DNA from: Glandiceps talaboti
Lineage: Eukaryota; Hemichordata; Enteropneusta; Spengelidae
Direction: 5' to 3'
Assembly (NCBI RefSeq): GCF_964340395.1
Contig: NC_135553.1
Coordinates: 9,217,501-9,281,500 of the forward strand
DNA: 64,000 nt
In this document: in pieces, positions 11,579 through 63,954 of the stretch
How the letters are laid out: every line of letters starts with the position of its first letter
Position numbering within the stretch: position 1 is the stretch's first letter
The notes under the pieces: model-generated
The model's input: the letters and a program-made list of their open reading frames with translations, nothing else
Database searches by the model: none
Told to the model about the DNA's origin: nothing
Program-made: the position numbers and the translations under genes

Positions 11579-14500
11579 CAGTTATAGTTTCTATAGCCCC
11601 AGACTTCAAAACCATAGTTACGTTCGATGGCACTAAAAAAGAGTGAAATCCATACCAAATGTTTGCTAACTTGACAGGTATGTCTTCAGTTTGCTCTCAA
11701 GAATAGGTTAATGTTAGTTTTTTTTTTTTTATCTTTCATGTTCTTTATTGAAAACCCATTGAAATTATACAGTATACAATAATATATGCATGTTGTCATG
11801 AATTAGGTTTTCTTTTTAGGATGAATTGACATAGAAACAAGATGTACATGTACAGAACAAAACAAAAACAAGAAACAGAAGCAGGCAAAAAAATGATATT
11901 GTCATGTACTACAAAATCAAAGAAATTCTACAATTGTATAATGACTGTTGAAAAAAAAGAAACAGATTACTACCGTCAGGATGAAAATATATACATTACA
12001 TCTACTAGAATACTTCTATGCCTCGAAATCTTTCCATTTTTCTAGGAATATTGGCAATGTACCCTTACGACGTGAAATAAACAATTCTAAGTTTTGATTA
12101 TGTTTAACTTCTATTCTTAGTAAATTAAAGCTTGGCAGCTGTTTTTTTAATTTACAACTGTAGATATTTTTCTTATACATGAGAACAATATAATTCAGTA
12201 ATTTAGACCAGCATTTATCACCTAAAATAATCTGTTGAGATGACGGGTACCTAGGGCAATTCAAAGCCTCACCCCAAGTTGTGTACATATCTTGCCAAAT
12301 GGCTTTCACATATTCGCAATCTACAAACAGGTGTACTAACGTCTCAGATGTTCTGTGACAAAAAGTACACGCATCTGTATCCACTAAAGGAGAACGCATG
12401 TTATATAACATGGAATTAGTATACAGAATATTGTGGCTTATTTTCCATTGAAATTCTCGAGCGACACTACTGATTGTAACTTTAAATGGCATACTATAAA
12501 TGAAGTTCCAATCAAGATCACCTTCAAAAAGGTTACTAAAGAAAATTTGACTTTTTGGTTTAATGAAGTAACTGCCTGAAATTAATTTACGTAGCTGTTT
12601 TTGTTCCGACTTTAACAATGCAATCAGTCCACCTTCACTGTGAAAGAGGAAGGTGTTTTCAGGTCGTACACAAATAGCTTTGTTTTTCCTCCAATTCACA
12701 GGCAGTGCCGATATCAATCCCTGCCACTGCAGAAAATCTATTAGATTAACCCCCAAATTACGAAAATACTCCCATCCTTTAATGTTACCATCAGTAGTGA
12801 AGATATCCGAGACATATCGAACTCCTACATTATAAAAGGTTTTAAGAAAAATACTTTTCCCTTGAATGAGGATATTTTTGTTATTCCAAATAATTTCAGA
12901 AGAAGATGAAGTAGACTTATCATGGCTATAGTTGCTCCAAACACTTAACATGTCATGATAAAAAGGAGGAATCTCGAAATTAAGTACATTCAAAGAAAAA
13001 TTACATTTAAAGATAAGCTGTCCACCAACTGGTTTAAGATAGTAGTCTAAAACAACTTTCCAAGGGTCGAAATATGGGAGCAGATAGTACTTAACCCACG
13101 TTACTTTGAAAGCCTTTTGCATTGCACAAATGTCTAGCATACCTAAACCCCCTTGGCCTATGTCACCAATCATTGTGTCACGTGCTACTCTATCGTGTCC
13201 CTTCCATAAAAACGAATAAATTAACGAATTGATGTGTTTTACATCTTTTTGATGGACATTGATAAGATTAAGGATGTACAGCAATTTCGGAATGACTAGA
13301 CTTTTAATTATCTGTACTCTACCCATAATGGTAAGGTTACGACTGGTCCAGCATTGCAGTACATCTGACAGTCCCTTGAGTGGTGCAGCCAGATTCAGTT
13401 TATAAGCTGTAGCTGTATCATATGAAAAAAATACACCCACAATCTTGATTGGTGACATAGGCCATTTGACCCCGAACGGAGTATCTCGACGAAATCTCCA
13501 ATTTCCCAACCAGAGTGCTTCAGTCTTATCAAAATTAACACATAACCCTGATACTTCAGAAAAAACTCTAAGAAGACAAAGAAGGTTTTCAGCAGATTGT
13601 TCATCTTTCAGGAAACAGGTGAGATCATCAGCATATGCCGAGCTCTTAACTTCATAGCCCTCCACACAAATACCACTGGTTTTATCGTCATGATGTAACC
13701 TGATAAGTAAGGACTCCAAAGCAAGAATGAATAAGATCGGTGAAAGTGGGTCACCCTGCCTAACTCCTCTACCAAGATTAAAATATGCAGTTGAAAGGCC
13801 ACGATTCATGACACAGCTGGATGGATTGCGATAGAATGTTTGTATCCATTCTATAATAGATGGACCAAAGTTGAAATTCTGAAGACATTGAAACATAAAT
13901 TTACGATCAAGACTGTCAAATGCCTTTTGAAAATCAACGGCAATTAGTATGCCCGTGGTATCAACATCTTTCGTATAATTCATAATGCCGTCGATAAGCC
14001 GAACACACTGACCGATTGATCTATTTTTCACGAAAGCTGTTTGTGATACACTAATTAAAGACTCAATGACTTTATCCATTCTTTTCGCAATACATCCAGC
14101 TGCCATTTTGTAATCAGTATTAAGGAGTGTTATTGGACGCCAATTACGAATGTATCTTTTGTCTTTACCCTTTTTTTCTATTAATGTAATTACGCCTTGA
14201 CACTGACTAGGCGATAGCTGACCCTTTACCTTTGCCTCATTCATAGAATCGATTACATAATGGCCGAGCAGGTTCCAGAATGTTTGGTAGAATTCAACCG
14301 TTAGGCCATCATTCCCTGGTGTTTTGTTTTTAGGCATACTGTTAAGTGAAAGAAATCCCTCGTTGAAAGTGATAGGTCCCTCACACATATCCTTATCTAT
14401 ATTGCTAAGTTTGGGGAACATATCACTATTCAGAAAGGTGTCGGCGTATTCCTCATCCCAATCCTGAATATGATTGGCATAGAGCTCAGAATAGTAACTC

Positions 14501-17500
14501 CGAATATGGCTTTGAATTTCCTTAGGGTGTGTCAATAGATAATCATGTTGATCAAATAATTGGGTAATTTGTGACTTTTTAGCATTATATTTTTCAAGGC
14601 CGAGAAAATATTTTGTATTTTTTTTCACCAAATTCATACCAGTCAGCTCTGGAGCGCACTACCGCGCCTTCTGTTAAATAATTATATTCAAAATTTAATT
14701 CATTGCGAATTCTTTCGATTTCTGTCTTCAATTCGTCCGAGTCCCTACCACTGAGCTCTATGTCAAGGTCACGTAACTTATTTTCTAGTGTGGTTATCCG
14801 CTCATTCCTCACTTTAGCATTTCTTTTGCTATAACTAATTGTGGTAACTTTGACCTTAAACTTAATATATTCCCATAAGCCTTGCTTATTGTGAGGGTTG
14901 CCATACTCTGTCTTCCAATTCTGGAGACTATCGTGAATAAGATTAATATATACAGGGTCATGAATCAGGCTATTGTTAAATTTCCAGTGAGATCTGCCAA
15001 GCCTACATCGACTATCTCCAATTGTCAAAACTATAGCTGAATGATCGGACATGATATTTGGGACGATATCACAGTTAACAATAGAGCTCTGGAGAGAACT
15101 ACTGATCAGAAAGAAATCTAGGCGGCTTTGAATCAATGCTGGACGTAGACGTCTCCAAGTAAAACGTTTTATCGTTGGGTTTCTAGTACGCCAAATGTCC
15201 TCCAAGTCAAACTTGGATAAAATACTATTAAACACACTAACTGACTTTTTCCAGGTAATTGGATTACCTCCTGAGCGATCTAAGTTTTCGTCTAAGGTTA
15301 AGTTGTGATCACCGCCCCAGATGATCTCACGATCAGGTTCAATATGAACTTCTTGCAGTAGATTCGACAACTGTTCCATGAAAATAGAGTGTGTATTCTC
15401 ATAATTAGGTGCATATGTATTAACAATAAGGAAAGGCTTATTCTCAATATCAATGGAAATTATGACAACCCTCCCCTCTGTATCACATTTAACTGTATGT
15501 ATAACATAATCTAGATTTCGTATAATAGTGACAACGCCCCTGCTAGCAGAGGTACCATGAGAAAATATATAATGACCTGGTAGGATTTTTGACCACTTAT
15601 TTTCATCTTCTAGTGTGGAATGAGCTTCCTGAAGCAAAATGATATTGTGATTACGTTTCTTTAGCCAATCCAAAACCTTCCTTCTCTTCTTCATACCCCC
15701 TAATCCCCTGACATTCAGGGAAACAATGTTTAACTTTTCAGCCATTTAGAATTACTAGTATTGCAACCCGTAAAGCTAGTTGTAATGACATAGACAATAT
15801 GGTTATATCAAAACTAATAATGTACGAGCCTGCAAACATGTAAACAACACACACACAAAAAGTTCCACAAACTACAACGCCAGTGGATACATCTCCGAGG
15901 GGAGATTGAGAAAAACAAAGGCATACAAAAAATGCTACCAAAAAGGCGCAGTGAAAGCCAGCTGTCATTACTAGGACACAAAAACCCGACCTAGCACCTG
16001 ACATAACAATAGGAATACTGCCAAATGAATTTATAATTCTAACTGAACCTCAAAATACACAGCTATGCTTTGAGGTTACTGTGAATATCAATATACAAGT
16101 ATATGCGTCAATAAATTACCATTGAAATAGTTCGAAAAGAAACAATTACGGAGAAGAGGAATGCAAGAAAGGAACGGTACAAAAGTCGTAGTGGCAAGTC
16201 CTTGAACAGTTCATCTCCTTCACAAACCTATCGTCGAAGTTCAAATTTACTTATTTGACAGTGTAAAGTTTATTGTTGATAAACAGATTACCATTAGCGA
16301 AACGAACTCTCTTCCCGTCCTTGTAAGCTTTATCCATGACATCACGCAAACTCCGCTTCGCCTTGTAATCAGCACTGCAGAGATCTACCTGTACAAACAT
16401 CGGCGTGTCTTTCAGAGCATTACGTCGTTTCATCAAAATTTGCTGTCGTTGTAGTCGAATTGGAAACTTGACTATGATATGCCTAGGAAAACGTCCTTGG
16501 TCTTCTTTACTCTTCGCTGTTGGTGTGCGGTGGGCATTATCTATGATAGCGTCCGATATTTCAAATTTGTCTCTCAGAATACTGTTTACTACGTCGGCAC
16601 AGTTTTCACCAGTTTCTTCGGATATACCGCCAAGGTTAATGTTAGTTTATAGAGCAACATAGATTGGAATTGCTTTGCAAAAGATATTTTAACATAGGTA
16701 TATGGAAAATAATGCCTTAATCTACAAACACTTCATGAAGTTTCATGAATATAATGATGGAATACACCTGGACTCAAGCAGTTGTATTTCATCTAGGATT
16801 GTATCAATGTAAGACCAACAATCAAATTATCTTACCTTCAGTGCAAGCATCAATGATTTCATATCCAATATTTTCACCTTCCCTATCACCATCAGTCCAT
16901 ATAACTAATATCTGGCACTGTCTGGCTTCACGTTCAAGTGTCCTCTGCAACAAAATAATTATTGTAACTATCATTTCTGCATTGTTTCTTTTCAAAAATT
17001 AATATGTTACACTGCAGTGTGTTTGGTGAGGACCAACATTACACTTTCTTTTGACACATCCCTGTCGTAGACTGTATTCATCTGCTTGCTAGCATACATC
17101 AACAAACAGAATAGTTTTTTAAGAAATCTATGTTTGAGTAAAATTTGCAACCATTGATTTACTCTTGAACATCATATTGGGTGACATTGAGAGTCCAGTG
17201 TGCCCTCCAAGCCAAATTTAATGTGCTCATGACACATAATACAATGTAAGTGAAGGAAGGTGACTGATTACTACAAGATTGGAACCCTAGCCCCACAGTA
17301 TCATCAGAGTGGTCTGTAAGCTCAGTGATAAAGTATGAAGTGTAAAAAAAGATGGGGTTCCAATGTCCTACATAAGTTATATTATAACATACCTTGATGT
17401 CTTGAAAGTCAGGCAAACATTTCTTTTCAATTGGAGCATCAAATAACATGACAGGGTCACATCCATGCCTATCAAAGATTCAAAGTCAATGCACAATTGA

Positions 17501-24091: not shown

Positions 24092-24924
<833 letters not shown>

Positions 24925-28205: not shown

Positions 28206-28333
28206 CCCCCCCCCCCCATCCATCCATCCATCCATCCATCCATCTATCCATCCATCCATCCATCCATCCACACACACACACACACACACACGCACGCACG
28301 CACGCACGCACGCACGCACACACGCACACACAC

Positions 28334-28364
<31 letters not shown>

Positions 28365-28455
28365 CATACATACATACATACATACATACATACATACATA
28401 CACACACACACATACATACATACATACATACATACATACATACATACACATACAC

Positions 28456-28534
<79 letters not shown>

Positions 28535-28566
28535 AACAAACAAACAAACAAACAAACAAACAAACA
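28206..28566. repeat. Compound microsatellite, copy 1
   Basis: Poly-C, (CATC)n, (CA)n, (GCAC)n, (CATA)n, (CAGA)n and (CAAA)n run together, preceded by a poly-G tract near 28105. Long frames here are repeat artefacts. Confidence 0.95.
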
Positions 28567-32077: not shown

Positions 32078-32204
32078 CCCCCCCCCCCATCCATCCATCC
32101 ATCCATCCATCCATCTATCCATCCATCCATCCATCCATCCACACACACACACACACACACACGCACGCACGCACGCACGCACGCACGCACACACGCACAC
32201 ACAC

Positions 32205-32235
<31 letters not shown>

Positions 32236-32326
32236 CATACATACATACATACATACATACATACATACATACACACACACACATACATACATACATACAT
32301 ACATACATACATACATACACATACAC

Positions 32327-32401
<75 letters not shown>

Positions 32402-32433
32402 AACAAACAAACAAACAAACAAACAAACAAACA
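32078..32433. repeat. Compound microsatellite, copy 2
   Basis: The same order of simple repeats as 28206-28566, with slightly different tract lengths. Confidence 0.95.
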
Positions 32434-41200: not shown

Positions 41201-43226
41201 TATGGTGGTGCAAATGATAACCGTTTTAGGAATCTAATAACATGGTATAGTACTCCTGCATATCGATTGCTGTGGTCAAAATATGCAATATACTGCCAAT
41301 GCTATAAATATACTTAAGATAGATAAGATAAATAGCTCAGAATGATAATTTTCTGCTTTAAGTACATTTTATAGATCCACCTGCATCTATAACACAACAT
41401 TGCCTCTGCTGCAACAGATACCTAATTATGATTACAGTACACGGTGTGTGTACATCCACAACAATGAGTACAAGTAGATGTTGTTATTTTGTACTGGTAC
41501 AGATTAGTTTTGTTGTATAGTCAAGCAGACAATCTTCATACATGGCATTAATGAACAAGTTAGTTAGGAATATGTTGAAGGGGGTGTTAACTGCAGTTAT
41601 GAGGAATGTTAAGATATATGTGTACACTGAAATTAAATATGGAGAAAGTGAACCAATTTTCTAATATTCTGATAATGTATATCTTTGACTTTTAAAAGTA
41701 ACATATTGAGTTCATTCTATATTAGTTTGAAATTGATGTAAGCTGAAATTATGTCTCGAAGTTTCAATGAGGTGGGAAAATAACTACAATGTAATTCTAT
41801 TCTTATATAATTTGTAATTACATTTAAAAAAAAAAATTATTTTCTGTGTTGTGCAAATTTAAATCAACATATTTGTACAAACATTTGTTAATTGTATAAG
41901 GCAACAAGTATGCAAATGAGGTCTACCCAAATATTTCTACTTTGTAGTTACCTGGTATGACACTCATGCTCATAGAAACTCTTATTTGTTTTTCAGGTGT
42001 TTGTTTTTGCATCGTCCAGCTGGAGATGTGGAGAGACGTTATCACCTGAGATACTACAAGACTGGAATCTGTGTACATGAAACAGACTCTAGAGGGCACT
42101 GTGTCAAGAATGGCCCACACTGTGCATTTGCTCATGGCCCACATGATCTAAGACCACCTGTGTATGATATACGTGAATTAATGGCAATACAAGAAGGTGT
42201 AATTCAAGCATCAAGTCCTGATAACAACAATATCAATATTGCTCCACCTGCCCCCGTAGAAAAAGAAAAGATTGTGGTAAATGATGTTGACCCTAAGTGG
42301 CAAGGTGAATCCGCAAGTATGCTATTTTTTTCACATTTATAGAAACGAATGAAGGAACAATATGGTAATAGTTTATACACTTGTCAATTTTTCCTAAGGT
42401 ACCACACCCAAGTGCATCACAAAATAATGTGCTCAATGGAACTTATTAAAAAGTACATTAGGATTGATATTCTCTCAGTTTTCTGAAAAGAGTATACACA
42501 TGGAAAAGTACATCAAGTGACGAATATTCTACTTGCTATATGTCAGCCTTCATTTATTGTTAAATATTTTCACATTTGAAAACTTTATATGGACATATGT
42601 AACTCAGATTTTCGGGTTTGAAAACTTTATATGGACATATGTAACTCAGATTTTACCCTGGATACACACACTCATCGATTTTTGCCCATATTTTTGTCTA
42701 ATTAACATATCATCATTGTTACTATGATACATTTAGGTTATTTCAATTTTGTATTTTAGATACAAGTTTTGTTCTAACGAATTATAAGACAGAGCCATGT
42801 AAAAGACCACCAAGGTTATGCCGACAGGGTTATGCCTGCCCTCAGTATCATAATAGCAGAGATAGAAGAAGAACTCCTAAAAAAGTTAAATATAGGTAAG
42901 TAGATTAACATGAGCATCCAGAAGAAGTGATGACCATGCTGACAATTTTATGACACTTATTGGAGAATGAAGACAATGACTTACAAGTTACAGTGCCTAA
43001 CTGTTTATATTTATATATGTTGTGAGGGGATTTGAGTCCCTCAGACCACTGTAGACACCCCGTGATGGATTTATACTGTAACATATTCCATCCTTGCTGG
43101 GTTGTCTAAAATTCACAAAAGTATAGCATTGTGTAACATCATAAATGAAATGAAACAACCCTGTGCTATTGATGAGACATCAGTCACATCCAGAAGCTAT
43201 GCTATGAAGTGCACTGTGGATATATG

Positions 43227-52959: not shown

Positions 52960-53630
52960 TAATAATCAAAGAGAAACTAAAAGAACTGTATGACAGACAA
53001 TCCATAGACATTATACAATGATAACAAAGGACAAAACCATAAAAATAATCTCCGGACATACAGACGAATAAAAAAAATACTACATGCAAAAAATATTTAA
53101 GCTTTATAAAAAATATCTGCTCCATAGATCTGCTGTGACAAAATTAAGGACACATTCACACAAACTAAAAATAGAAACAGGTAGACACAATAAACAAGAC
53201 ATAACTAACAGAACATGCCCCATGTGCCAAACCAGTGAAATTGGAGATGAACATTATTTTAAACTGTAAAATGTTCACTATCAATGAAAATTGATATTCG
53301 CCCACTTTAATATGGCAAAAATGAGATATAATTGAAGAAGTGGCTAACTACACGTTTCAAACTTACAGAGTGGTACACTGTCAACAGCCTCCAGAAAACA
53401 AACACAAATATTTTAAACAAGCTATTTTTGGACGCCCTGCTAGGGTATGTTTTTTCTGTTCATCTTTGTTTTGTCATTTATTTGTACACAATGTCATTTT
53501 ATTTTCTCTCTTCATTGTGAATAGGTCTGATGTCCAGATTTGGATATGGGCAATAAAGAATTACTACATACATGCACACACATACATACATACATACATA
53601 CATACATACATACATACATACAGACAATGT
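52960..53630 (+). mobile_element. Decayed LINE 3' end with (CATA)n tail
   Basis: A frame at 53084-53269 reads LLHRSAVTKLRTHSHKLKIE, then GRHN and CPMCQTSEIGDEHYF. This is the conserved C-terminal tail of many non-LTR reverse transcriptases (kLRxSaHxLxIExGR...CxxCxxxEvgDExHF). The upstream reverse transcriptase is missing or unrecognisable, and frames are broken on both sides. It ends near AATAAAGAATTACTACATAC and a (CATA)n run (about 53580-53622), a usual LINE tail. The clade is not assigned. Confidence 0.7.
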
Positions 53631-54660
53631 GCGTCCAAGATGATCTGATGAATAGATAAAACTATTTACCCAAATCTGTCTTCAAATTCTTTTTGAGAAT
53701 GTCTGCCCATAGATTCCCCAATAAGTGTGAATGTGTGGGTTCTCGAACAATAACATGTGAATGTTTCTAATAAAAACAATATTCAATAAAATGCTTTCCT
53801 GTTACATGCGACAATCTACGTTTCTCAATTGTTCAAACATAGCACTATCATATCTATGTAATAATAATAATATTAATAATAATAATCAATCAATCAATCT
53901 TTATTGCATAACAACATGCCATAGCAAGCATGGAAATACACACAAAAATAATAATACATCCTTATCAGCGAACTAAAAAAAAGAATAAGCATCATGAAGC
54001 TTTAAACAGTAAACTGTCCGACATGTATGTCGCTTCCAAGCAACACTAGCACGTAGGTATTTTGGGATTTCCATGGTTGTTCTGCTTTGTTTACCTACGG
54101 ACATGTGCGTGCACGTCACATGAAACCAAGGCGAATCGACGCTGAAGAGACGTCAGTTTCTATTTTTGGTATGCATTCTTTTCCCATGTAGTCAGTGACG
54201 TCGAGGTTAAATTCTGACCAATCAAAAATTTGTTATCACATGATATCGAAAATGTCCACCAATCGGAAGTCAATGATTTCACGATTGTGAACTATGACCC
54301 TCTGTGCTGAAAATTTTCTGATGCAACCCGTTCTGACTACTAACACCTGCATCTGGCTGAATGCATGTCCGCCAGTAGAAAAATAGACCCAAAAAATTGC
54401 TAATTTCTCCAGAATACTGCATTTTTTGTATGTGGAAGATTGTTCTGAGGATATTGAAATTATTTAAAATAAAACTGATGTTAATTATTACAAATTCTAT
54501 GGACTGAAGCAACTATTAACGTCACCGCTAGCCTCCTCAACAGCGGATAGTTATTCTAATCGTCATGTGAATAGGTTGAAGTTTCCCGCACTATGATATT
54601 TTGTTATAGTCGTGGACATTTTTATCCGTAAAGGCGAATAGCGAGCAAGGCAACCCAAAA
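53631..54660. other. Intergenic DNA upstream of ATF4
   Basis: Holds an (AATC)n TTTATTGCATAACAAC stretch at about 53883-53910, like a reverse-oriented repeat tail. The proximal promoter of the ATF4-type gene follows. No gene is recognised. Confidence 0.5.
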
Positions 54661-54671
54661 TCACAGGCGCA

Positions 54672-54683
54672 ATGGCTTTTTAG
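54672..54683 (+). promoter_or_regulatory. ATF4 uORF1 (Met-Ala-Phe-stop)
   Basis: ATGGCTTTTTAG in the first exon of the ATF4-type gene. Vertebrate ATF4 mRNAs also have a three-codon uORF1, which lets ribosomes resume scanning after it. About 56 bases separate its stop from the uORF2 start. Confidence 0.75.
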
Positions 54684-54739
54684 ATCAGAACCGGCACACA
54701 CAAACTCGTGCAATAACATTGCACACGAAAACGGCAAAC

Positions 54740-55498
54740 ATGGCGTAAGTATTTTATAATTATTACTATTACATTGATGTTATTTTTTTGGAGTATAACA
54801 ATCTCTGTCATGAAAGAATCAATTTTCAATCGAAACCGCATGGGTGTTACTTCCTTGTATTAACTATTACAATGTTGGTTAGATATTCAGTTTCTAGAAT
54901 GAAATTACGATTTGAAATTCTCTCTATTTTATTTTTGAAAATAAGACAATGAAATCAATAATTGTTGTATACATGGTTAACATATGGAATGTCGGAATTC
55001 TTGTTGTGAGCCGCAATAACAAGTCCAGAGAATAACTCATTTATGTTTCAACTGGATCGTTGTTCAGGAGTTATATCAAATATCATATGTTTGGAATTAT
55101 AGTAAATGACAATGTCGAGGTTTGTGCTATGTAAGAGCAACTAAAAATTGGATTTGTTTTCCCAATAAAAAAATTACGTTCAGAAATAAGAGACCGAATG
55201 GTTGGCCATTGTCAAGAGCCACGCACTACTGCGCATGGCCATCAACGTGTCAATATTATAATTATAAGAATAAATAGTGGGCTAGCTTGTTTACAAACAT
55301 TGCCGAAAGTTGGCGGAAAAAGATTATTTGACATGTCTGATGTTGACTATATTTATTTCCAGACCCCAAACGACTTTAACCTTCGAACCAGTCATTGGTT
55401 TATTGATCACGGAATACACAGCAGCAGAGATACGAAGTCAAGATGTTGGGCTTTGGATACGACGATTCCCCCTTCAACTCTCTCTTCGAGGAGCTTGA
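54740..55498 (+). promoter_or_regulatory. ATF4 uORF2, spliced and overlapping the main start
   Basis: Starts at 54740 with ATGGC, the last five bases of exon 1 (donor GTAAGT at 54745). It resumes at 55363 after a TTTATTTCCAG acceptor and reads to TGA at 55496-55498: 46 codons plus stop. It overlaps the ATF4 coding start (55443) by 56 bases in another frame. In vertebrate ATF4 an overlapping uORF2 of 59 codons blocks the main frame unless eIF2 is phosphorylated. Confidence 0.75.
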
Positions 55499-56636
55499 GG
55501 GGGATGGATTATTTCAAGATATCGGAGTCAAGGGGACTCCTGTTGATAAGAATGCTGTCCTCGACACAGCGAATATCTTCCCAGGATTAGATGAACTTGA
55601 AGGTATGCATCATTTGTATGATATATATGCACTCACTATATCCATCTCAATCAATGAAATATACAATATCTGACAAACCTGTAGGATACGTTATGCATGA
55701 CATAGATTGTAAATTCTACAAACCTAAGAAGTTTTTCGGATTCATTTTATAAGGATTAATTTTTGACATTGTTGTTCTGCAGAGCCCCTGGAAGACTGGA
55801 TGACAGAAAAGATAGATTTCGGCCAGCTGGATGCGGCAGACAACTTCCTGGGTCAACCATCGGATGACTCGGAGCTGATGGTACTCGCACCACTGGGCGA
55901 CAGTCTTCACAAGCTGGAAGTCAGCACATCTGACTTGGAGCTTCTAAATAGTTTGGTGGTTGATCACAACATTCCTCCACAGCCACCAGCCCCCGAAGAG
56001 GATATTGCACCTAATCTTCTGGCACTGTCGCCCTCGCCAGTAAGCAGCCTCCCTACATCCAGGTCGGCATCTCCAACCACTGTCTTCACAATTCCATCAC
56101 CGATTGGTACAGAAACTGGAGAGCTAATAAATCCTATTCCAGCTGCCACTCTCCTTAGCACGTTGGTGCAACAGAGCAAAGAAGATCTTGCCGTGCAACT
56201 TCCTCTGTCACAAAATAGTCCTATTCCTTCCACTCCGATCTCGGCAAGTTTACAGTTCCCCTTAATTTCTCAACAATGTCTCACTCCACCAGTCTCTCCC
56301 TCATCAAGTACAACAAGTTTTGTACTATCAACAGTGACTAAAGACAAAATAAAGGACAAACCTAAACGTGATCCTCCAAAGAGGACAAAATCAAAATTAA
56401 AAACTGTAGGTGGTATCAGAGTAGACAAGAAGTCAAGAAAGCGTGCTCAAAATAAAGAAGCAGCTACGAGATATCGAGAGAAAAAGCGTGAAGAGGCTAA
56501 TGCCAGACAATCTGTGGAAGACGTTTTAGAAAAGAGAAATAAGGACTTGAGAGAACAAGTAGACTCGATAACAAGAGAAATTAAATATATGAAAGATTTA
56601 ATGGCAGATGTTTACAAAGCCAAAGGACTGATTTGA
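55443..56636 (+). CDS. ATF4: ATF4-type bZIP transcription factor
   Basis: Two coding exons, 55443-55602 and 55783-56636, give 337 aa (human ATF4 351). A noncoding exon ending at 54744 lies upstream. Seen: an acidic N-terminus, a Pro/Ser-rich middle, and a C-terminal bZIP (about 255-335) with RKRAQNKEAATRYREKKREE as basic region. A leucine zipper follows, ending REIKYMKDLMADVYKAKGLI. Human ATF4 has EQNKTAATRYRQKKR and AKEIQYLKDLIEEVRKARG at the same places. ATF4 (Drosophila cryptocephal) activates amino-acid synthesis, redox and proteostasis genes in the integrated stress response, binding CRE/C-EBP composite sites as a dimer in the nucleus. The two-uORF leader argues for translational induction under stress. 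ATF5 is the vertebrate paralogue; this looks like the common ancestor-type gene. Confidence 0.94.
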
Positions 56637-56903
56637 GTGACATGATGATGAAACCAATATTAGTTTATTTTTCAGTAGCGTGAGCAGATAATTTCAAGTT
56701 TATTTAGCCATGTGCAAGTTCTGATTATTTATTTGCACAAATGCAAGTTCTGATTGTTTATTTGTGCAAAGCTTGCTTGCTTGCTAGCTAGCTAGCTTTG
56801 TAATGTGTTATTAAAAGTGTACTCATTTATTTATTTCAATGTACACGACTTACAAGAATTTTTGCATAAGTTTTCGTTTGAATAGAAAATTCCTGCGAAT
56901 AAA
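56637..56903 (+). other. ATF4 3' UTR with poly(A) signal
   Basis: AATAAA at 56898-56903 is a likely poly(A) signal. The UTR contains two tandem copies of a 29-bp unit starting TGCAAGTTCTGATT (56713-56770) and a GCTT/GCTA run. Confidence 0.65.
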
Positions 56904-57286
56904 ATGTGATTGTCTGTGTGAACACCCCTTCTTCTGTGGTTTTATATAAGACATCAATAGTTGTGTATTAGTGTGTGTGTGTGTGTATTCCTACTATGGT
57001 CACCATGTGTTTCGGTCAACAGTAAAGGGCACAACTAAAATTAAAGTAGTAATACTTGTATAGACCACTGTACAATGATTATCCACCTTGAATCTCGCAC
57101 GTAAGCAACAAGGTTGTCATTCCACATTTTGCACGTCGTGAATTGGAAGATTTCGTATCCACAAACTTAATTTTTGAACTATTTGAGCATGAAATAATTC
57201 TTTGTGGGAAAGGGAGGCGAAAATCACTTGTCTGGCATGGTAGCTACTTTTGTATTCACACGCTGGATAATCTCGGTGCAGTGGTT

Positions 57287-57367
57287 GTTACCAAGCCTCT
57301 TGCCGTTGAGGGCATAGCCCTCCGCTGGGGCCATGGCTATGCCCTCAACGGCAAGAGGCTGGGTAAC
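57287..57367. repeat. Near-perfect 33-bp-arm hairpin
   Basis: The left arm 57287-57319 and right arm 57335-57367 are reverse complements with one mismatch, around a 15-bp loop. Arm core CTTGCCGTTGAGGGCATAGC. GC-rich compared with the AT-rich flanks. No gene covers it. Confidence 0.85.
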
Positions 57368-59092
57368 CGAAACTCCGCTGAAATGTTACAAATTCAACCT
57401 CTGGTTTCATCAACCCATGGAAACAGCTTCAAAAGGTACACGTACATACGATGTGCCCTCTCGTAATGATGTAACGTAATAATCCTCAACGTATGGACAC
57501 GTGTGTGTGTGTGCACGTGCACGTGTATGCATGTGTTTTGCCATGCATATCGCTATTTATAGTTTAGTTTAACAGTTTTACTTCAAACTTCATCCATCAA
57601 TTCACAAATCTGTGTCCAAAGTTAATGCGGTGGTGCAGGTACAGCTGTACAGAATCCGTTCACCCCTTTTCAAAACCCGAAGAGACCTCACTGTAGTGTC
57701 GATTGTCTATCGTGTTGACTTCACTGCATGAGACATAAGCAGTAACACGCTTTTAATATGTAATGGCGCGGGGGGGGGGGGGGGGGGTCAGAAGGGGTGG
57801 ACACATTTTGTCATTTTAGTACAGGCACAGTGATTCGACTGCATTGAAGATGAAATACAAAAATGTGGCATTACATTCTCGCAAGTCAGAATACATTTTT
57901 GTCTGTTGACGCAACGGAAAATAATAGTAACCTCTTGACAGTGCCGTAAAAGAGGCTGTGGGATACGACGATGTTACTTTATTGTTCTCAGAATATTGGG
58001 ATGATGTTAATATATGGATGTTGTGGGCGAAGAATTATTTGCATTTGAATTTTTAAAAAACCTCCATAAAACTACAGACTTGTCTCTGATAAAACTAAAA
58101 GAGAGATGACCTACATATATAAGGCAGAGCTAAGGTATCTACGAAACCTTGGATTTCTCAACTTCAAGCCTATCCATTTTTCCCTGCTGACCGGTAGACT
58201 TTTATACAGGTGAGGAAAACATCTACGAAATGTAAATCAGACATTCCAAAAATCCATCAAAAATTAAACATTTCCTGTATCATTTCATAAGTAAGCTTTA
58301 CTGGTAGTGTTTGTAAATATTATATGGAATGCGCCATCACACATCTGTGTCGATATCCCTAATGATATTGCAAGTAATTGATAGAAAAAAACCTGTAAAC
58401 GAAAAGACTGTTTTTTCAAAGTAAATAGTAAAGTAAACATGATAAAATTTAAAACAGACAATTTTCAAAAAATGGACGATTTCTCATGACTACGATGACG
58501 CAAAACAATGTTACCCATCATCCTTCACGCACGTATGCGAGCCACACGGTACACTGCACTACACTGGGGACAACGACCTTGAGGTGAGTAGTGCACTATA
58601 CTAGTGTTGATAAACTGACGCGCATTTTTCAAAGAGGAAGACTTCGTGTCTCCCATCCCTCGTTTTCTTCATTCAGTGTATGTGCAGAACAGATTAGTGT
58701 GTGTGGTTCCCAAGTACGATTCCGGTCACTGGGTCAGTGGCTTCACTGGTATTGACGTTGCACCCGATGTTGCATGACAGTGAAAACACGTACAGAATGT
58801 GCTCTTTCAATTTTCCTTCAAAATTTGCCATATTTGTTTTTTGTAGCATTGCTAAATGACCTATACTCGTGATACTCTCTTTTCAGTCATGGTATGTGTA
58901 CAGTGCAGTGTGTTGCTGTCACTGATCACAGCAAAATATTTCCAAAAGATGACCCATGGCCCAGTCAACAGGTGGCACGATTAAATCATTAATGCAGTAA
59001 AGATACCAGACTTGTTACCTGGACAAATAAGTGAACACCTGACTGAATTTACATTTGACCATACTGTCATTGATATTTTTTGTAGGGATAAT
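57368..59092 (+). other. Intergenic DNA and TRAF6-like 5' region
   Basis: Holds a poly-G tract (about 57769-57787). A candidate noncoding first exon for the next gene has a CTTGAG|GTGAGT donor after 58583; its partner would be the TTTTTTGTAG acceptor at 59085, eight bases before the ATG. The first-exon start is not determined. Confidence 0.45.
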
Positions 59093-62000
59093 ATGGCTGC
59101 TAATACAGAACAATTTATAGCTAACAACGAAGAAGAGAATGTTGAAGAGCATTTTCAGGGTTATGATGCTGTATTTGTTCCTGATATAGACAAGAAATAC
59201 AGTTGTCCAGTGTGTCTTGCAGCACTACGAGATACTGTCCAGACAAGATGTGGGCACAGGTTTTGTCAAACTTGTCTGACAAGAGTTTGTAGGTTAGTAA
59301 AAGTGTTGTTAAACTTGTCAATGTGTCTGTATATAACACTTGTAGGTGAGTACACAGTTTAACAAATTTGACTGACCAGCATCTGTTGGAGCATCCAAAT
59401 TCTATATCATACAATTTCCAGACAAACGTTAGAAATATATGTTGTCAAACTTGTCCAACCAAAATCTTTTGGTGAATTTTTTCATGCCTGAAAATGTTGC
59501 AAGATTAAAATCAGTGATTCTACTGTTGTCAAACTTGCCTTAGCAAGTTCACATTTATAGTACCTTTGTCTGGACATACATTTTTGAATATTATGATTGT
59601 CATTTTTGTTGTTATTTCCAGAAATAGAAAGTATGTAAAGTGTCCAGTTGATAATACTTGGTTTGATAGTGATATTGATGTAAGTATTCCTTTTTGATAT
59701 AATTTCATAATTTTTTTGCAGTTTTCACCAAGCAGGAAATCACAAAGTAGAAGACTATATGATTTAAATGCCAGAACCAAACTTATAGAACAATAGTCTA
59801 AAATTTAGACACGTTCTTTGTTTATTTACCTTTTATTTGTAATCATAGTAAGGTTATTGTGATATGTAATGTGGTATGTTTTATCTTGCTTAATATGGAG
59901 AGGATGTAATTGTCATTAAAAATTACATGTTAATGATTAATCAATAGTTTTTAGAGGATAAGATGTCAATTGATGGTATGCCTTCTACTCTGACATATAT
60001 GTGGTCTGAGAAAATGAGAAAATAATAGGCAGCAATAAGTAAGTTACATGTATTTAAGCATAGACAGTGGAAGGAAATTACACCTCAACTGTCTATGATT
60101 TAAGACTAAAATAACGATGTATACTAGTATTCTCTCAGTATAGTATTCACATTGGTTGTTTGTTGAGTATAGTATTCACATCGGTTGTTTGTTGCAGGTG
60201 TTTGATGATGTTGCTATGAGGAGAGAAGTTTTATCCTTGATGGTGTTGTGTAGATACTATGGAGATGGCTGTGACTGGAAAGGAGAGTTGAGAGAACTTG
60301 AAGTAAGTGATATCTTGGCAAATGTTCAAGTTTACTGTTCTTTTTTTTAATATCATCATTGATAATACTGGCCATGATGTAGGTTGGGGGTATGATAGGT
60401 ATGTGGTATATAGTGGTCTGTGAATGGCCACAGATTAAACAGTTGACAATTTATGTTTCACATGAACAGTTCTTATATGGCTATATACATCTGGGCCTTT
60501 ACTTAGCATGTTAGAGGTTTTACGAGATGATCAATGTGGGTGTTTCAATATTAGTTGTTTCACATTCCTTCCATCTGAATAGTAGAGGATACGACTGCTT
60601 AAATCCTCGAAAAACTAAATATTTCTTTGATGTGCCATCTGCCTTGTGTCCAAATAACATAGTACCAGTGTGCTACTAAACTGATATTATTGTTACTGAA
60701 TATTTCAGAATTGGAAAGTATTGTTAACTAAGTACCCATTTTTAATTGTTCCATATATTCTATTAGTTATTCATAGAATGTACTTATGAGCACAACGCAA
60801 GAAACACTAACTGTATTGTGATTTCCCCACTTTCAGGAACATTGTCCTATCTGTCCATTTGAGCAGCTGACTTGTCCAAACATCTGTGGTGATATGTTTC
60901 TACGTAAATTTAGGGAAAAACATCTGAAAGAATGCCCTAGACGACCAATCCACTGTAAACATTGCTCAGAGAATATGATATTCAAAGATTTGACAGTAAG
61001 TAATCTATTCAAGTATCTTATAAATGTGGGTGATCATGTTACTGTTTTTTCAGCATTTTCCTTACTATTTATTTCACATCTGGGGAGATGGTTCATTGAA
61101 AAATGGAAAGTGTAATTAAAAGTAGCATCATCATTAGACGATATATTATACTCTGTGCATGGAAATTTTTGATTATACATAGTCATCCATGTGTCAAAAT
61201 TAGCAAATTGACATCATTTGATGCAATATGGAAATATGACAATCACATTGTTACAGTGCAAAAAGATTATCACTACATGAATGTCAATTAATGAACAAAA
61301 CTTTCATGGGGCAAGGATTGCTAACCTTTCCACAATGTTTATTTATTCTTCAGAGGCATGAGTTATTGGTTTGTCCCAGATTTCCTGTCAGTTGTGCACT
61401 ATGTGGACAGGGTGGAATACTACGAGATGATGTGAGTAATTCTGATGTTCTGCATCAATTGAACTTGAGATATCCTTTTATGACTACAGCTTTCTAGAAT
61501 CTTTCATTCACTGAACAGAACTGAAGTTGAAATTGATTTTGGTGAAATGGTTTAGCTAAATTGTGGTAAATGTCAAGATACATTTATCTTAAAATGTGGA
61601 ATTTACTTAGTTCTTGATGGTTTAATTTTTTTTTCTTTTTCATTTCTTTTGATCAGTTTGTTTGACCCATTATTCTTTTCAGTATTTAACACGTGTAACT
61701 TCTTGTCTGTTAGAAACATGACCTTTAACCTATGTGTGTGACCTTAACCTCTTCAGTATTTGACACATTTTACTTAATTACAACATCAGTGATAACAGTT
61801 CCTCATGGTGGAAATACTTTTATTACTGAAACTATTTTCATGAAAATTTCAAGAATATTTTATTTTTTTTAACAAAATTTAATTTCAAATGAGTTTGATT
61901 GAAAAAGAATTTGAATGAACTCAAAAAGTCCAAGAATTGGTCCAGTTATTTTGGCAAGCACAATTGTTGATTAAAATAAATGAATTGCTCTCCTTTGACC

Positions 62001-63954
62001 ATTTTAATAGTCTATGTCAGGATGTTATATTTTATCTTTATTTCTATCATAGATACCAAAACACATAGACACACAAGATGGTAGCTGTCCTAATTCTGTA
62101 GTTCCATGCACATTTGAACATATTGGATGTCATGCACAGGTAAGAATTCTTTTGTTTGTAGTGTATTTTGATAAATGTGATACTCTTCTGGACGAAAAAA
62201 AAAACACCCTCACACAATTTTTTGGATTTGAAGTACAAAATGATTATGAAGAAGCTGAAGATGAAAATACAGGCATACTTGGTTCTGACAGATTGAAATG
62301 AACCTGTACACTATTTGAAACTAGATTGTTTACCCCTCAGGTGAAAAGATGTGAGCTTGGTAACCACTGTGAGGAAGCCACTACTTTACACTTATCATTA
62401 CTATCTAGTCTGGTATGCCAACAACAACTACAGTTACAGAATACCCAAGTTGAGCTCCTGGAAACTAGAGAGAAGTATATGACATTGTCTGGGGAGCATT
62501 CACAACTGACATTGTGAGTTCATATTTTCTTTGTGATGAATGTGTTCCAATTGATGATGTTGTCTTTTGTTTAAATTCAAAACTGTACCTCAGTGTGTTC
62601 TATTTTTACAGACACCTGCTGTCTCTTGTAGCCTATGTTGCTTCTTTTGACTTCTGGATGAAAATTATATTCACAGGAATTGTGTGTGATATTAGGTAGA
62701 ACAGGGGTGAAGAAATGGAAATTACTACAAAAAAATGTGTTATTCCTCAGTATTGTTTTTGTATCCCTACTGGCAGGTAGTAACAAATTCTGATATGTAG
62801 TCTATCGTCATGTACATGTATAATGTTCAATTATCAGGTAAAGTTGTATCAGTACAGTCTGTTAGAAAACATAGAAAACAGCTGATTAAGACCACCATCT
62901 AATTTCCATATTACAAACATTTTACCAGGTGTTCAATAACCACATTTGTGCCTTTGAAGCCTAATGATTTAAACAGTGGGAAAACCAATGTAATATCACT
63001 TTGATTCCCCCATACATGGCATGGGTGGACATTACATTCCAGGTGTTTCCATTTGAATTTGCATTTTTACGAATATTGTTATGCATTCAACGTTTATCAT
63101 TTTCAATAATTTCTAACAAATGTGTACAAAAATGTCTTGAGAAAAAAAAAAGACTTTGAAAAATGTATTCTGTGGGATACTTGACTTTCAAATCAAAGTT
63201 GTGTTGCCTGGCATTGGATACCACTATTCTGCTGAAAGTTATTGTAACAACTCGAAATTAACGAACTTATTTTATTGAATTTCGTTTTGGTTTTTTCAAA
63301 CCATGTACAAGTGTAATGTACAACCTATAATGCATTTATCCATCTTTCATGTAGTTTCATCAGAATCAATTTTTTTTATATAGTGATAGTGTTTCTTTTA
63401 TTTCTATTTTGTTTTACAGAAAACTAAAAGAGAAAGAACTCATGATAAATTGCCAAGAAGAGAGAATCAGTTTCCTTGAAAACACCAGCTTTAATGGAAA
63501 ATTGTTGTGGAAAATGAAATTAGCAGACAAGGATGAGCAATGCTGTCTTACCAGCCCTACGTTCTACACTGGTTGCCCTGGTTACAGAGTTTGCATCCAA
63601 GTGGAACTGAATGCATACAATGGACGTGATGAGACATACACATCACTGTTTGTTATCCTACAGAAAGGAACATACGATGATGCTGTCAAGTTTCCTTTTA
63701 ACGCTGTCTGCAAACTGACTGTGTATGACCAAGATAGTCTGTCTGCAAACAGAGAAGACTTCACAACTACAATAGTATGCAGTGAAGTGCCAAGATCCCC
63801 CGACAATGGGTATAATGAAAACCAAAAGCGAGGACTGTTAAAGTTTATGATGACGGAGAAATTGATTGGGGCAAAATATGCTAAAGATGGAAATGTGTAT
63901 TTTCAAATAGAGGTTAATCATACGGCCCCTGTAGATATTATAATGAGTACATAA
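59093..63954 (+). CDS. TRAF6: TRAF6-like RING / TRAF zinc finger / MATH protein
   Basis: Eight coding exons: 59093-59292, 59622-59679, 60198-60302, 60837-60995, 61354-61431, 62053-62139, 62341-62513, 63420-63954. They sum to 1,395 bases, or 464 aa (human TRAF6 522). The N-terminus has FQGYDAVFVPDIDKKYSCPV and RCGHRFCQTC, then KCPVDNTW: a C3HC3D RING as in TRAF6 (about 40-80), where human has [20 protein letters not shown]. TRAF-type zinc fingers follow (about 120-235; LKECPRRPIHCKHC and CTFEHIGC). A short coiled coil and a C-terminal MATH/TRAF-C domain (about 295-464; FYTGCPGYRVCIQVELN, YTSLFVILQKGTYD) complete it. TRAF6 is an E3 ligase making K63 chains downstream of Toll/IL-1R and TNFR-type receptors. 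The peptide-pocket residues of TRAF6 (Arg392, Phe471, Tyr473) are not kept, so the ligand range may differ. Confidence 0.9.

Follow-up and report, generated by a model that had tools for sequence, protein, structure and literature searches.

Paired uORFs have been reported on the ATF4 mRNAs of metazoa except nematodes, as far as 5' data exist, with Aplysia and Hydra among the animals named and a uORF1 of 2 to 3 codons (PMC4176352). A further element of human ATF4, the stem-loop SL3, has a stability of -15.4 kcal/mol, lies in the overlap of uORF2 with ATF4, and is conserved among vertebrates; opening it raises human ATF4 about 1.3- to 1.8-fold, and ribosome queuing has been proposed (PMC11058473). 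Splicing bears on ATF4 output as well: according to a review, inhibition of PRMT5 gives rise to an unstable, intron-retaining ATF4 isoform that is nuclear, and ATF4 is lowered (PMC13163986).

As judged from its protein sequence, the gene at positions 54672-56636 on the forward strand of the 64,000-nucleotide stretch of Glandiceps talaboti DNA analyzed here (the window) is an invertebrate ATF4 of the bZIP type. Its C-terminal bZIP domain, detected by scanning the exon-3 frame, matches the Pfam bZIP_1 model (9.5e-10), and human ATF-4 (1ci6_A) is the sole PDB sequence matched at E<=0.001 (1.3e-10, residues 269-330). The ATF4-type assignment made in an earlier note on this DNA is borne out by these Pfam and PDB matches. 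The coding sequence consists of 55443-55602 in exon 2, whose frame produces no Pfam matches at E<=0.1, and 55783-56636 in exon 3, which holds the bZIP domain; together they encode a protein of 337 amino acids. The tripeptide DSG is absent from all 337 residues, unlike the situation in mammals, where the ATF4 degradation motif is DSGXX(X)S (PMC13163986). When the 590-Mb genome (47 contigs) was searched with the ATF4 protein, 8 candidates were scored and only the gene's own two exons appeared at E<=0.01; no second copy was seen at that threshold, the match counts being lower bounds.

The leader of this gene has the same elements as the paired-uORF ATF4 mRNAs of vertebrates, Aplysia, Hydra, and insects, with which the gene shares an ATF4-type bZIP domain, a uORF1 of 2 to 3 codons, and a long uORF2. 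uORF1, ATGGCTTTTTAG (ATG GCT TTT TAG; 54672-54683, forward strand), reads Met-Ala-Phe-stop both directly and by script, in agreement with the three codons previously reported for it. The start of uORF2, ATGGC, occupies the final five bases of predicted exon 1 (54740-54744), and the remainder (55363-55498) ends with the TGA at 55496-55498, giving a total of 46 codons after splicing; in human ATF4, uORF2 has 59 codons. Given the predicted splice 54744/55363, the uORF2 stop lies beyond the main ATG at 55443, and in the mature mRNA the two frames overlap by 56 nt out of register, as in mammals. Both this overlap and the placement of the uORF2 start at the very end of exon 1, which is itself a predicted boundary, could be reproduced as the earlier note had given them. 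The distance from the uORF1 stop to the uORF2 ATG is 56 nt, and the uORF2 ATG precedes the main one by 85 nt. Both uORFs start in a context with a purine at -3 (G in uORF1, A in uORF2) and G at +4; the main ATG has A at -3 and T at +4. Transcripts beginning upstream of 54565 would carry two more elements ahead of uORF1, a start-stop ATG TGA (54565-54570) and a 12-codon uORF (54593), the former of which resembles the start-stop that precedes uORF1 in vertebrate ATF4 (PMC11058473). Between uORF1 and uORF2, there is also an inverted repeat, GTGCAAT-aac-ATTGCAC (54708-54724), with a stability of about -7.4 kcal/mol as RNA.

The two-uORF layout by itself is only mildly unusual. In 4,000 dinucleotide shuffles of the leader, each with an assumed transcript start, a uORF of no more than 3 codons ahead of a second one that overlaps the main ATG in another frame was seen in 6.3% of cases for a start at 54600, in 3.1% for 54640, and in 15.1% for 54500. 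The same layout with exactly two ATGs was found in 0.9% of the shuffled leaders for starts at 54600 and 54640, a figure that does not apply to 54500, where the real leader holds four ATGs. What makes the layout convincing is its location on an ATF4 gene, where such a layout is expected.

Since this arrangement has already been described for animal ATF4 genes, of which the present one is a further example, delayed reinitiation is the best explanation for it, and we consider it very likely that this ATF4 gene, from an invertebrate that is probably a deuterostome, is translated in this way. The earlier note had recognized the layout of eIF2-dependent delayed reinitiation, and the leader indeed matches the description of metazoan ATF4 (PMC4176352). 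Ribosomes would translate the three-codon uORF1, remain on the mRNA, and scan onward. With active eIF2 plentiful, they would reinitiate at uORF2, with its strong start context, and, as uORF2 runs past the ATF4 start out of frame, ATF4 would not be made. With eIF2 phosphorylated, rearming would come later, uORF2 would be bypassed, and translation would start at ATF4. This puts the ATF4 two-uORF switch, at the level of sequence, in a hemichordate, consistent with the published picture of its wide spread among animals.

The same leader may have consequences for mRNA stability. A stop codon located more than 50 to 55 nt ahead of an exon junction exposes an mRNA to nonsense-mediated decay (NMD). 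The stop codons of uORF1 and uORF2 precede the next exon junctions by 61 nt and 104 nt, respectively, so that by the usual rule this ATF4 mRNA would be open to NMD. ATF4 is among the stress genes that are raised when eIF2-alpha phosphorylation represses NMD (PMC5437625).

The completion of uORF2 depends on the predicted intron 1 (54745-55362, forward strand), identified from splice-site scores and composition, which is 618 nt long, has a GC content of 31%, and contains 18 ATGs. Its donor, ATGGC/GTAAGT, combines a perfect GTAAGT with a poor exon side (GGC), and its acceptor is TTTATTTCCAG/A. Position 54744 is the top-scoring donor within 54560-55443, with a score of 5.9 versus 8.3 for the intron 2 donor, and 55363 is the second-best acceptor within 54780-55443, the best one being at 55068. 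These scores, calculated with general splice-site base frequencies, prove little taken alone because many sites in the window score as well: on the forward strand, 151 of the 3,879 GT and 181 of the 3,437 AG dinucleotides reach at least the scores of the predicted pair. The GC content is 45% in 54600-54744, drops to 31% in intron 1, and is 44 to 49% across the exons (44 to 47% in exon 2), while ATGs number 2 in the 145 nt of 54600-54744, 18 in the 618 nt of the intron, and none in the 80 nt preceding the main ATG. The splice model 54744/55363 is plausible on these sequence features. As modeled, intron 1 separates the start of uORF2 from the rest of it, splitting the frame just past its ATG, so that an overlapping uORF2 initiated at that ATG would exist only in spliced mRNA. 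A search of the open-licence literature yielded no description of where exon boundaries fall with respect to uORF2 in the ATF4 genes of other species, which proves little; the intron that splits uORF2 right behind its ATG provides a concrete position for comparison across phyla.

The earlier note had drawn from this arrangement a possible link between splicing and stress translation, of which one half stands, as a uORF2 that begins at its own ATG would require splicing for its completion. The other half was that retention of intron 1 would replace the blocking uORF2 with a minimal Met-Ala-stop; as a model, regulated retention would thereby de-repress ATF4. The unspliced ATG GCG TAA is indeed present, and the poor exon side of the donor (its score of 5.9 versus 8.3 for that of intron 2) could favor retention. 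However, a Met-Ala-stop of this kind is a property of the donor consensus, because donors of the GTAAG or GTGAG type contain a stop codon at positions +2 to +4; such a stop occurs in 92 of the 144 donor-like sites that score >=6 on the forward strand of the window (this donor, at 5.9, falls just below the cut). Any frame that enters a donor of this type in that phase ends at once, and the minimal uORF need not be designed. Moreover, it would be followed by the 18 intron ATGs, whose coming into play upon retention the earlier note had itself foreseen. Three of them head frames that stay open across the ATF4 start, namely, 55198 (130 codons, to 55590), 55333 (85 codons, with the same stop), and 55340, which is in the uORF2 frame and reaches the same 55498 stop after 52 codons. 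With 18 such ATGs, three of them open across the main ATG, retention should repress ATF4 more rather than less, and, judged by sequence, the retained form does not appear less inhibitory than the spliced one. In mammals, too, the intron-retaining ATF4 isoform is described as unstable and nuclear, so that splicing of an ATF4 intron does alter output there, with an effect opposite to relief (PMC13163986). The literature thus already connects ATF4 with splicing, but with retention working the other way (PMC13163986). We have therefore rejected relief by retention on the ATG content of intron 1 and regard it as highly improbable; a retention switch does not appear to be worth pursuing as a relief mechanism without evidence. 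Under delayed reinitiation, RNA that retains intron 1 would be still more blocked and probably non-productive.

A different way around the uORFs would be open if most transcripts began in intron 1 or exon 2, lacking both uORF1 and uORF2 and producing ATF4 free of inhibition. There is a precedent in a short mammalian ATF4 transcript without uORF2, which arises from another promoter or by splicing (PMC13163986). In Glandiceps, four CRE half sites (TGACGT or ACGTCA, at 54113, 54150, 54196, and 54519) fit a promoter ahead of exon 1, and the segment 54600-54744 is GC-rich and poor in ATGs, which makes such downstream starts improbable as the main source of transcripts. The number of half sites compares with 0.27 expected for 54000-54744 from the window's own density. 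In the same region, TGATGCAA at 54319 resembles a C/EBP-ATF element. Perhaps 54113-54519 is the ATF4 promoter; both the CRE half sites and the C/EBP-ATF-like motif turned up post hoc and serve only as hints.

In addition to the uORFs, the uORF2/ATF4 overlap contains a strong predicted hairpin (55466-55505, forward strand) of -21.1 kcal/mol, whose 3' arm includes the stop codon of uORF2. It came from a search, made after the gene had been seen, of 40-nt windows along the modeled mature (spliced) mRNA, and is the most stable of the 1,200 such windows that cover 54600 through the ATF4 stop (mean, -5.0; standard deviation, 3.2). The best window in this range that does not overlap it has only -13.0 kcal/mol; past the ATF4 stop, in what is probably the 3' UTR, 56766-56805 reaches -18.1. 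When the entire 64 kb was scanned on both strands in steps of 5, a value of -21 was reached at three loci, one of them the hairpin. A fold of a longer part of the leader assigns pair probabilities of 0.86 to 0.98 to the inner stem and 0.3 to 0.6 to the outer pairs. Shuffling of 55460-55512 gave 1 sequence in 200 that was as stable (z, -2.66). An Rfam search of 53500-57500 resulted in five matches at E<=1, none of them at gathering score.

The hairpin might be a mere by-product of the protein sequence and base composition, with only uORF1 and uORF2 mattering for control; we give this reading somewhat less than an even chance. Synonymous codons average -10 kcal/mol at the hairpin position, and with codons drawn uniformly 38 of 3,000 sequences are as stable as the real one, so part of the hairpin follows from the protein. 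When the whole coding sequence was resampled, 3 of 200 versions reached -21.1, all three at this very position. Also on that side are the post hoc nature of the search and the fold of the initial 118 coding nucleotides, which is unremarkable (z, -1.09; 28 of 200 shuffles) and counts against an exceptional stability of the overlap. Conversely, with the gene's own codon usage, only 11 of 3,000 synonymous resamples are as stable; the next unrelated window before the stop and the rarity of -21 in the 64 kb argue in the same direction, as does the position of the hairpin, which equals that of human SL3. A hairpin with a role in the overlap would have room in front of it: the uORF2 ATG lies 109 nt from the stem, enough, with the usual ribosome footprint, for three to four queued ribosomes.

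The resemblance to human SL3 (-15.4 versus -21.1 kcal/mol here) includes a strong predicted hairpin inside the overlap in both cases and extends to a C-tract, CCCCCUUC-AC, seen as CCCCCUUCGACC in human ATF4 (PMC11058473) and as CCCCCUUCAACU in Glandiceps. The Glandiceps codons are TCC CCC TTC AAC (Ser-Pro-Phe-Asn), and the human counterpart, taken from a primer (PMC4764583) and read in a frame that we presume, is TCC CCC TTC GAC. By the gene's own codon usage, the probability of sharing the Ser-Pro-Phe codons with the human gene is 0.012, a post hoc figure. In Glandiceps, the C-tract forms the 5' arm and pairs downstream, whereas the human C-tract, as we read the structure of SL3, is located downstream of the loop and pairs upstream. 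Human SL3 also has an AUG (AUG3) in the loop and a near-cognate CUG 20 nt upstream, both of which the Glandiceps hairpin lacks: there is no ATG in its loop and no CUG in 55443-55470, and UUG codons are found 21 and 14 nt upstream. Hence, we do not claim identity with SL3, although the overlap hairpin may work like it and, under the delayed reinitiation scheme, would probably slow ribosomes as proposed for SL3 in human ATF4. Frameshifting from uORF2 to ATF4 at the C-tract was also considered; for human ATF4, it has been excluded (PMC11058473). In a pattern search of viral contigs for relatives, 15 stretches matched and none was confirmed.

It is conceivable, though rather unlikely as a whole, that a queuing hairpin in the overlap predates the vertebrates or arose twice, and that the partner side of the C-tract was switched under selection, with the hairpin acting together with a uORF2 that is completed by splicing. 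Should the hairpin prove to be real and conserved, the additional layer of control described in human ATF4 would be older or convergent. The overlap hairpin and the question of whether other animals share the uORF2-splitting intron are the leads worth following.

Several other features were observed in the window. An Unkempt-type CCCH finger is encoded upstream of ATF4, at 41986-42342, and the region 3' of the gene (within 59012-63954) contains a frame of the RING type (59012) and another of the TRAF-type MATH kind (63409), which may belong to one TRAF gene. On the reverse strand, there are a core histone frame (24445-24906), which looks by eye like H3 and is extended by additional residues at either end, and a LINE-type element (12016-15745), recognized by its domains, whose two long frames encode endonuclease and reverse transcriptase. 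A foldback at 57270-57384 has 50-nt arms that are 82% complementary and, on either strand, matches the mir-3119 model with less than the gathering score; it is perhaps a small mobile element. Two similar tandem-repeat blocks (28216-28566 and 32087-32433), spaced by about 3.87 kb and each followed by matching ACATT arrays, suggest a local duplication.

The mitochondrial contig contains a 15,435-bp unit, present in tandem in the assembly, with a GC content of 53%. COX1, ATP6, cytochrome b, COX3, and ND3 were confirmed by Pfam, and the remaining genes were named by eye from their frames. The gene order is near the deuterostome pattern, ND6 being encoded on the opposite strand, and cytochrome b lies between ATP6 and COX3; the latter placement is unlike that in published hemichordates, in which nd5 and cob are adjacent (PMC2697986). 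A lysine tRNA with the anticodon CTT is located between COX2 and ATP6, and a second lysine tRNA prediction (TTT), on the opposite strand within ND5, is probably spurious. The codon AAA accounts for 2 of the 3,541 codons in ten protein genes with approximate ends. The CUU anticodon is found in echinoderms and in Balanoglossus, and AAA is missing from Balanoglossus (PMC3121625). Judged by these features, the mitochondrial sequence would be ambulacrarian and most likely comes from an acorn worm (Enteropneusta).
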